64,000 bases of DNA from Acidimicrobiia bacterium (GTDB lineage Bacteria > Actinomycetota > Acidimicrobiia > Acidimicrobiales > Bin134). The position numbers were made by a program, and so were the translations under genes. Location of the stretch: positions 124,001-188,000 of the forward strand of contig JAJECA010000008.1 in assembly GCA_022822265.1 (NCBI GenBank), written 5' to 3'. The notes beneath the pieces were generated by a model. The model saw only the letters and a program-made list of their open reading frames with translations, did no database searches and was not told where the DNA came from. Position 1 is the first letter of the stretch. The number at the start of each line of letters is the position of its first letter. Shown in pieces: positions 15,446-15,994 of this stretch.

Positions 15446-15994
15446 TCAGCTCTGGCCGGTCAACGCGGTCAGGACCTTGGGCGCCATGATCTCGGCGAGC
15501 TCCAGGCACTCTTCTTTGGACCAGATGGCGATGGGTACCCATGGATAGTCGACGGTGAGAAACTCATAATCGGGGCAACCGCTCACTCGGGCGATGGCCT
15601 GGGCCGATCCCCTCATCTCCTCATGGACGATGGCGATACTGGGAACCCCGGCCCACTCCAACTCCACTGCGTCCCGCAAACTGCGGGCACTACAGCTGCC
15701 TCAACCGCCGAAGCCGGTGATGGCGACGGTTGCCTCCTCGGTCAACCGACTCCAGTCTCCCGGATCAGGGGGAATGGACACCGAGCTCTTGACCACCTTG
15801 AGCGGGGCTTGCAGATCGCTCAACTTGTTCAGCTCGTCATAGAGCGCATCCAGGAAGATTTCCCCCTCGCCGAGGCCGTTGGCCACCAAAGCGACGACCG
15901 CCCCGTCCAAACTGGCCGGCCGGGGAGAGAAATCATGGTCGTCGGTGCGGTCGAACGGGCCCGACGTGGGGTCGAGGCCGATGAGGGTCGTCAT
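15446..15994 (-). CDS. UGSC-family selenoprotein with in-frame TGA (Sec98)
   Basis: The leftward frame from ATG 15994 runs 97 codons to a TGA at 15701-15703, then continues in the same frame for 84 more codons to a second TGA at 15446-15448. Read through, the junction is ITGFGG-U-GSCSARSLRDAVELE, the UGSC motif that names this (seleno)protein family, followed by the conserved DAVELE helix. The N-terminal half (VALVANGLGEGE) and the C-terminal half (VDYPWVPI) both fit the family's layout. A hairpin placed like a bacterial SECIS follows the TGA (15673-15687). Function is unknown; the family resembles the redox half of glycine/proline reductase selenoproteins. An ordinary caller would split it into a 97-aa and a 77-aa fragment. 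No Sec machinery gene is in the window. Confidence 0.87.
15673..15687 (-). promoter_or_regulatory. Candidate bacterial SECIS hairpin
   Basis: On the minus strand, 13 bases after the TGA, CCCGCA pairs perfectly with TGCGGG around a GTT loop. The loop begins with G about 20 bases after the TGA, inside the window expected for SelB-binding SECIS elements of bacteria. Fold inferred by eye only. Confidence 0.6.

Follow-up and report, generated by a model that had tools for sequence, protein, structure and literature searches.

The UGSC selenoproteins were represented by 255 sequences in the 2008 GOS survey, whose family descriptions suggest a thioredoxin-like (Trx-like) fold and record a UGSC/Unknown_1 fusion (PMC2398784), and by 8.2% of selenoprotein genes in a 2021 survey, which places them among the commonest aquatic selenoprotein families; a 2026 review lists UGSC among the selenoproteins whose functions are largely uncharacterised. 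The comparisons below connect the family to GrdB and PrdB, which are described as reductases, glycine reductase having further subunits and using thioredoxin (PMC13188914). Here we analyse a UGSC gene in a 64,000-nucleotide stretch of an Acidimicrobiia genome (the window: bases 124001–188000 of contig 27, in an assembly of 3.48 Mb and 64 contigs that is 94.7% complete). The gene is a further member of this known, uncharacterised family; what is new is the two-gene system that we propose around it.

On the reverse strand the UGSC frame starts with ATG at 15994 and runs for 97 codons to a TGA at 15703–15701 and for 84 more to a terminal TGA at 15448–15446, the former being the only stop between 15994 and 15446 (Table 1). 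A first-pass annotation of the same DNA had seen one frame split by this TGA into segments of 97 and 77 residues: the frame, the lone interrupting stop and the first length were right, and the 77 covers just the part from the first TTG of a second segment that is in fact 84 residues long, so that the joined product has 182 residues with Sec at position 98, as had been proposed. Read through, the protein carries GFGG-U-GSC within a restored ITGFGG-U-GSC, and RDAVELE (the annotation's DAVELE helix), both as described. Since each half matches its own part of the family profile PF24696 (39.4 bits over profile positions 3–91 and 73.1 bits over positions 95–171) and the joined protein scores 135.6 bits over positions 3–171 of 172, against a gathering cut-off of 25, the split gene is more than chance; the split-frame observation is confirmed, and the assignment to UGSC that came with it is supported. 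The protein shares with described family members (PF24696, NF041046) a similar length, the UGSC motif, Sec or Cys at the site and a PF24696 score over the cut-off; it differs in the six paralogues of its genome and in falling below the cut-off of the NCBIfam equivalog NF041046 (88.1 against 125 bits), a shortfall that weakens just the narrow equivalog label. A scan of the window for TGA read-through frames listed ten, this one among them. That gene callers would break such genes in two is exemplified by the Paracoccus plasmid pFER4, whose UGSC gene appears in the record as a pair of hypothetical proteins, with the TGA closing the first.

Table 1. Features of the UGSC locus, in window coordinates
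Feature	Position	Strand	Description
UGSC family selenoprotein gene (predicted)	15446..15994	-	182 residues, Sec98, UGSC motif 98-101; PF24696 135.6 bits; AlphaFold2 mean pLDDT 90.1
In-frame TGA, read as Sec	15701..15703	-	TGA at same codon in 74/77 UGSC hits (best 80 of at least 450 partner loci)
SECIS-type apical hairpin (predicted)	15673..15687	-	6 pairs, loop GUU, nucleotides 17-31 from U of UGA
UGSC partner protein, 327 residues	16034..17017	-	no significant Pfam/NCBIfam family; conserved TDGLP, MAGC (C77), NGP, E178
Lrp/AsnC-type regulator	17027..17488	-	9 bases upstream of partner; Pfam/NCBIfam
Alanine dehydrogenase-like gene, divergent	17655..18806	+	Pfam; context, outside module

The Sec decoding trait predicted for the organism is borne out by its genome, in which tRNA-Sec (contig 60, position 5193; 67.5 bits, gathering score 47; called tRNA-SeC with anticodon tca by ARAGORN), selA (contig 60, 19874; 405 bits, cut-off 268), the adjoining selB (contig 60, 21046; 274 bits, cut-off 242) and selD (contig 11, 115856; 356 bits, cut-off 125) all exceed their thresholds; selD itself contains one in-frame TGA. 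The same genome holds six UGSC genes, all over the PF24696 cut-off and each with exactly one in-frame TGA. Across 198 genomes of the order, UGSC occurs in 95 among the matches listed (own genome included) and selA in 119, in 114 of them over its cut-off. Both genes are found in 88 genomes, UGSC only in seven, selA only in 31 and neither in 72, an association with a Fisher P of 6e-21 among the matches listed, kinship uncorrected. UGSC copies were fetched from five of the seven UGSC-only genomes, G018 and G063 being left out: Cys stands in one of two copies from G053 and two of two from G155, and TGA in those from G001, G170 and G197, three assemblies that are 83–90% complete and split into 510 to 630 contigs. 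G180, with a Cys-type UGSC, is counted as having selA on an 18-bit match only.

Relatives were also collected with the partner gene alone as query, yielding 80 loci that are the best of at least 450. The 77 UGSC hits in these best 80 of at least 450 loci have TGA at the Sec codon in 74 cases, TGC in two and CAG in one (L042), which agrees with the earlier expectation of Cys or Sec at position 98, motif losses being few (L042, L117, L118). Among 40 UGSC loci from the order, picked to include all seven TGA-free ones among the matches listed, those seven have TGC or TGT and the rest TGA. We aligned the six own genes with 55 of 73 eligible locus hits, leaving out near-duplicates by hand and dropping beforehand rows without TGA, TGC or TGT or shorter than 150 residues (the CAG member is thus absent); columns 98 and 101 are invariant in all 61 of these Sec/Cys members.

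Plasmids extend this picture. Fourteen plasmid regions were opened (13 from 24 records, plus H23; three without annotation), and in a set of 13 UGSC or fused genes TGA is present in three (Acidovorax, L120; Paracoccus, L114 and L219) and Cys in eight (Natrinema, Halalkalicoccus, Halorientalis, Arthrobacter, two Variovorax, Embleya and Roseovarius), the motif being lost in two (Sporomusa, Vibrio); a fourteenth gene, from Neorhizobium (L220), reads C-S-T-C at the motif. The two that have lost it are UGSC–partner fusions (Sporomusa termitida, L117, 6329–8053; Vibrio europaeus, L118, 6344–8029) in which M-G-T-S stands in place of UxxC; aconitase X genes lie no more than a few kilobases away. With UxxC lost in L042, L117 and L118, some of the family functions with neither Sec nor Cys at that site, and these members speak against a purely redox role of the family. 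Paracoccus versutus pBEN (L219, 6402–14329) and P. ferrooxidans pFER4 (L114) carry a Sec-type UGSC–partner pair together with selB, and pBEN additionally a TrxB-like gene and tRNA-Sec; selA gave no match in the fetched stretches of these two plasmids. Judged by gene content, the arrangement is a putative plasmid-borne Sec island.

Directly 3' of the UGA lies a predicted SECIS-type hairpin that is conserved in UGSC genes. In 75 TGA-type genes the six-pair stem 17–22/26–31 has 96% of its stem cells paired, against 15–56% for the same stem slid by 1 to 6; pair 21–27 is C-G in 49 genes, G-C in 25 and T-A in one, and the apical loop begins with GU in 73. Codon 8, which carries the loop, is AGT in 63 of the 63 genes where it encodes Ser, and AGT makes up 49 of 762 Ser codons elsewhere in those genes. 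Relative to synonymous-codon shuffles, the 48 bases from the UGA fold with a mean z of -1.15 (62 of the 75 TGA genes below zero), other offsets giving mean z of -0.50 to +0.31. Fold, pairing and AGT bias thus point to a hairpin under selection. Individual copies are less striking: all six apical pairs can form in the window sequence, whose hairpin, taken alone, scores only modestly (z -1.94; 5 of 200 shuffles fold as well), and the folding z of single own copies is -1.02 for the window gene, +0.11 for C5 and +0.87 for C29. The Sec reading is supported by the machinery, the homologue codons, the conserved hairpin and the single TGA in each of the six own UGSC genes, and we regard Sec decoding at the window TGA as almost certain; 15994–15446 is, on this reading, a predicted UGSC-family selenoprotein gene whose host has the full Sec machinery.

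The gene upstream, the five further paralogues and the relationship to GrdB/PrdB have no counterpart in the first-pass annotation. The partner gene lies on the same strand as UGSC, 39 bases away, and a paralogue of it adjoins all six UGSC genes of the genome, in both gene orders. UGSC is present in 71 of the 80 partner loci (best 80 of at least 450 relatives), or 68 of 77 once the near-identical L033–L035 are set aside; three of the nine loci without it end at contig ends and six are uncut. Conversely, a partner lies within 2.5 kb in 39 of the 40 UGSC loci, the fortieth (L159) stopping 121 bases past UGSC at a contig end. The 89 partner copies in the best 80 of at least 450 loci have a same-strand UGSC within 600 bases in 71 cases, farther away in seven and none in 11, with the partner first in 48 of the close pairs and UGSC first in 23. 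Fused UGSC–partner frames interrupted by just the Sec TGA occur in L045, L053 and L064, and a Cys-type fusion in Variovorax (L215). Distance matrices for 112 UGSC–partner pairs correlate at 0.87 (permuted maximum 0.13 in 999), a value to which shared ancestry contributes. UGSC and the gene at 16034–17017 very probably constitute a two-protein module, and we infer that their products would form one enzyme. The best named match of the partner is L033, an Acidimicrobiia MAG, at 99% identity; the fourth-best (L036, 69% identity) comes from a MAG labelled Deltaproteobacteria, reflecting either transfer or a misbinned contig.

The partner itself has no significant match to a known family. At E 0.001 the protein encoded in the window matches neither a Pfam nor an NCBIfam model, its 73 aligned relatives hit nothing in Pfam under E 0.02, and partner profiles hit nothing in the PDB under E 0.3. 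An AlphaFold2 model is confident (pLDDT 92.9), and Foldseek found no PDB match to it under E 0.001, with TM-scores of at most 0.29 by model length and up to 0.39 by target length (small YjgF chains). Resemblances to fumarate hydratase or cyclic amide hydrolases were rejected as too weak (best Foldseek E 1e-3, TM at most 0.29), and profile comparison led us to reject relationships to UGSC (0.1%) and to GrdB/PrdB (0.4%). In an alignment of the six own partners with 67 of 88 others, near-duplicates left out by hand, D26, G27, P29, G117, P118, G143, N152 and E178 are invariant in all 73, and C77 is Cys in 71.

What kind of protein UGSC might be is suggested by its predicted fold and by profile comparison. 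The AlphaFold2 model is an alpha/beta fold in which a strand and a helix flank Sec98; its Foldseek matches are flavodoxins, lumazine synthases and similar proteins, weak (best E 6e-4, TM up to 0.56), with no thioredoxin among the 50 listed of 1227. For comparison we used the GRDB family PF07355, matched in 64 of 296 genomes of the phylum, reading stretches through their own TGA to obtain 13 GrdB and 24 PrdB-like sequences with exactly one TGA each. By hhalign, whose E-values here are single-pair and not database values, UGSC aligns with a pooled GrdB/PrdB profile of 11 sequences at 93.6% (E 2.2e-7), Sec column on Sec column, and with the pooled 37, all with TGA at the site, at 93.1% (score 51.5). 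With the 37-set, 100 column permutations reach at most 2.2% (score at most 20.7) and the reversed profile 1.5%; masking residues 98 and 101 leaves 77.1%. PrdB-like sequences alone give 81.5% (68.9% in a smaller set) and GrdB alone 37.2% (32.5%), so the putative link to GrdB rests on the pooled profile. A search up to E 10 gives no PF07355 match for the window's UGSC protein, and the 25 families listed, of 40, for the 61 UGSC members do not include it. We conclude that the Sec domain of UGSC is probably, if distantly, homologous to that of GrdB/PrdB, and the profile match and predicted fold argue against the Trx-like fold suggested in 2008.

The likeness consists of the Sec and a similar run of residues after it (UxxC or UGTGT, then E..GIP and, later, G.PR and P.P.G). 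UGSC differs from GrdB in missing the N-terminal part of GRDB, and its module differs from GrdB/PrdB systems in having diverse catabolic genes as neighbours. GrdE and PrdA are pyruvoyl subunits, whereas UGSC's partner is unrelated to GrdE by profile (0.2%), a relationship that we likewise rejected. Several observations concern the GRDB family in its own right. Thirteen full-length PF07355 matches (L161–L173) stop at position 347 of the profile, immediately ahead of the Sec TGA, which suggests that the model was made from proteins cut short at Sec. These GrdB genes with in-frame TGA lie within about 120 bases of GrdE (L201–L213) in 12 of 13 genomes, the thirteenth (G324) having only a GrdE fragment nearby. 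The contig that contains the window also bears, outside it, a PrdB-like selenoprotein gene with in-frame TGA (contig 27, 19644–20063; PF07355, 43 bits).

Genomic context hints at a source of electrons. The gene order is trxB-trxA-partner-UGSC in Arthrobacter sp. ERGS1:01, where trxA and the partner overlap, and partner-UGSC-trxB in Roseovarius; in Variovorax SRS16, trxB lies two genes upstream of the partner. All three have Cys at the Sec site, and Sec forms with a TrxB-like gene occur in L078, L107, L155 and L219. Nine TrxB-like genes with CxxCD are present in 138 UGSC-or-partner loci (1.29 Mb), where about 0.9 would be expected from the 34 TIGR01292 matches (E 1e-10 or better) in 48.1 Mb of 13 genomes (Poisson P about 5e-7); the background is drawn from one order and the 138 loci span many phyla, some coming from close relatives and some having just one of the two genes, and six of the nine TrxB-bearing loci supplied the sequences for the TrxB model. 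The stretches around the six modules of the own genome contain no TrxB-like gene. From these genomic hints, a thioredoxin-fed reductase is a little better than an even bet.

No substrate can be read from the other neighbours. The Lrp/AsnC-type regulator is probably on the same transcript as the partner, but among the loci searched it (at E 1e-10 or better) and the alanine dehydrogenase-like gene were matched only in L033–L035, which are near-identical, so their presence names no substrate. Among 130 flanking ORFs there is no conserved third gene, the commonest Pfam family being MFS_1, in eight; the neighbours are catabolic genes of many kinds (thiolases, hydrolases, amidohydrolases, CoA transferases), and this diversity likewise leaves no substrate to be named. 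A phosphosulfolactate synthase-like (ComA) gene is found close to the module in L113 (Arthrobacter), L045 (a betaproteobacterial MAG) and L115 (a haloarchaeon), possibly a hint at a substrate.

As an explanation of the whole we favour, with moderate confidence, a thioredoxin-fed two-subunit selenoenzyme. UGSC would supply Sec98 and Cys101 as the redox pair, carried by an alpha/beta domain of flavodoxin/Rossmann-like type that is related to the GrdB/PrdB Sec domain, and the partner would bind or activate the substrate. The selenolate would attack the substrate and a bond would be cleaved reductively; a Se–S bond would arise with Cys101, or with the conserved Cys77 of the partner, and Sec would be regenerated from NADPH through thioredoxin reductase and thioredoxin. 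The six paralogous pairs of a genome may handle different carboxylate, amino-acid or xenobiotic substrates. Beyond the sequence-based Sec decoding, pairing and homology, this proposal posits a complex, reductive cleavage and thioredoxin; the simplest account would have a selenolate subunit resembling GrdB/PrdB paired with a new substrate subunit and dependent on thioredoxin for its reduction. UGSC might instead act in repair, in the manner of a thioredoxin or peroxiredoxin, by keeping Cys77 of the partner reduced; the partner would then be the enzyme by itself, possibly a non-redox one. The near-constancy of Cys77, the TrxB-like neighbours, the 2008 GOS paper's description of UGSC as likely Trx-like (PMC2398784) and the six uncut partner loci that do without UGSC (best 80 of at least 450 relatives) would all suit such a role, which we nevertheless think unlikely, given a predicted fold of flavodoxin type with no thioredoxin among its 50 listed matches, the profile match to GrdB/PrdB, and fusions and nearly constant pairing that fit a complex better.

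Less likely still is a Sec/Cys nucleophile that brings about no net redox change, like that of a lyase, isomerase or transferase, with Cys101 only tuning the nucleophile: Cys at position 101 in 61 of 61 aligned members (the CAG member left out), the TrxB-like and TrxA neighbours and the reductase nature of GrdB/PrdB (PMC13188914) weigh against it, although the diverse catabolic neighbours and the branches that keep the fused architecture without UxxC speak for it. That the TGA is a true stop or a sequencing error, leaving a pseudogene or two genes, has in its favour that two legal ORFs exist; it is refuted in practice, with a negligible remaining probability, by the TGA in 74 of 77 relatives (best 80 of at least 450 partner loci), the Sec machinery of the genome, the hairpin under selection and the codon-position bias past the TGA, where differences from the window gene fall at third positions in two of two cases in L033, 16 of 19 in L035 and 40 of 89 in L036 (29, 20 and 40 at positions 1, 2 and 3).

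Neither the literature searched at title and abstract level nor passages of PMC2398784, PMC13188914, PMC9312934, PMC7539508, PMC5029168 and PMC9402790 describe the partner, a relationship to GrdB/PrdB or a link to TrxB. Those passages mention no partner gene apart from the Unknown_1 fusion, for which the ones from 2008 describe no operon, paralogue or electron-donor link (PMC2398784); Unknown_1 may be the partner described here. More speculatively, and as a possibility that we would put at somewhat under even, UGSC and its partner could represent a widespread unrecognised selenoenzyme class in which a selenolate domain of GrdB/PrdB type has been recombined with a substrate subunit whose fold is new, electrons coming from NADPH by way of thioredoxin reductase and thioredoxin, with many copies per genome opening different carbon–heteroatom bonds in catabolism, Cys versions in haloarchaea, and plasmid-borne versions. 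Annotators who meet TDGLP...NAVMAGC in a 'hypothetical protein' next to a split ORF should suspect a missed selenoprotein. For the family, a near-constant partner, homology to reductases and a candidate electron donor make UGSC a purifiable enzyme with a defined assay, and its role can now be tested as that of a selenium-dependent reductase.
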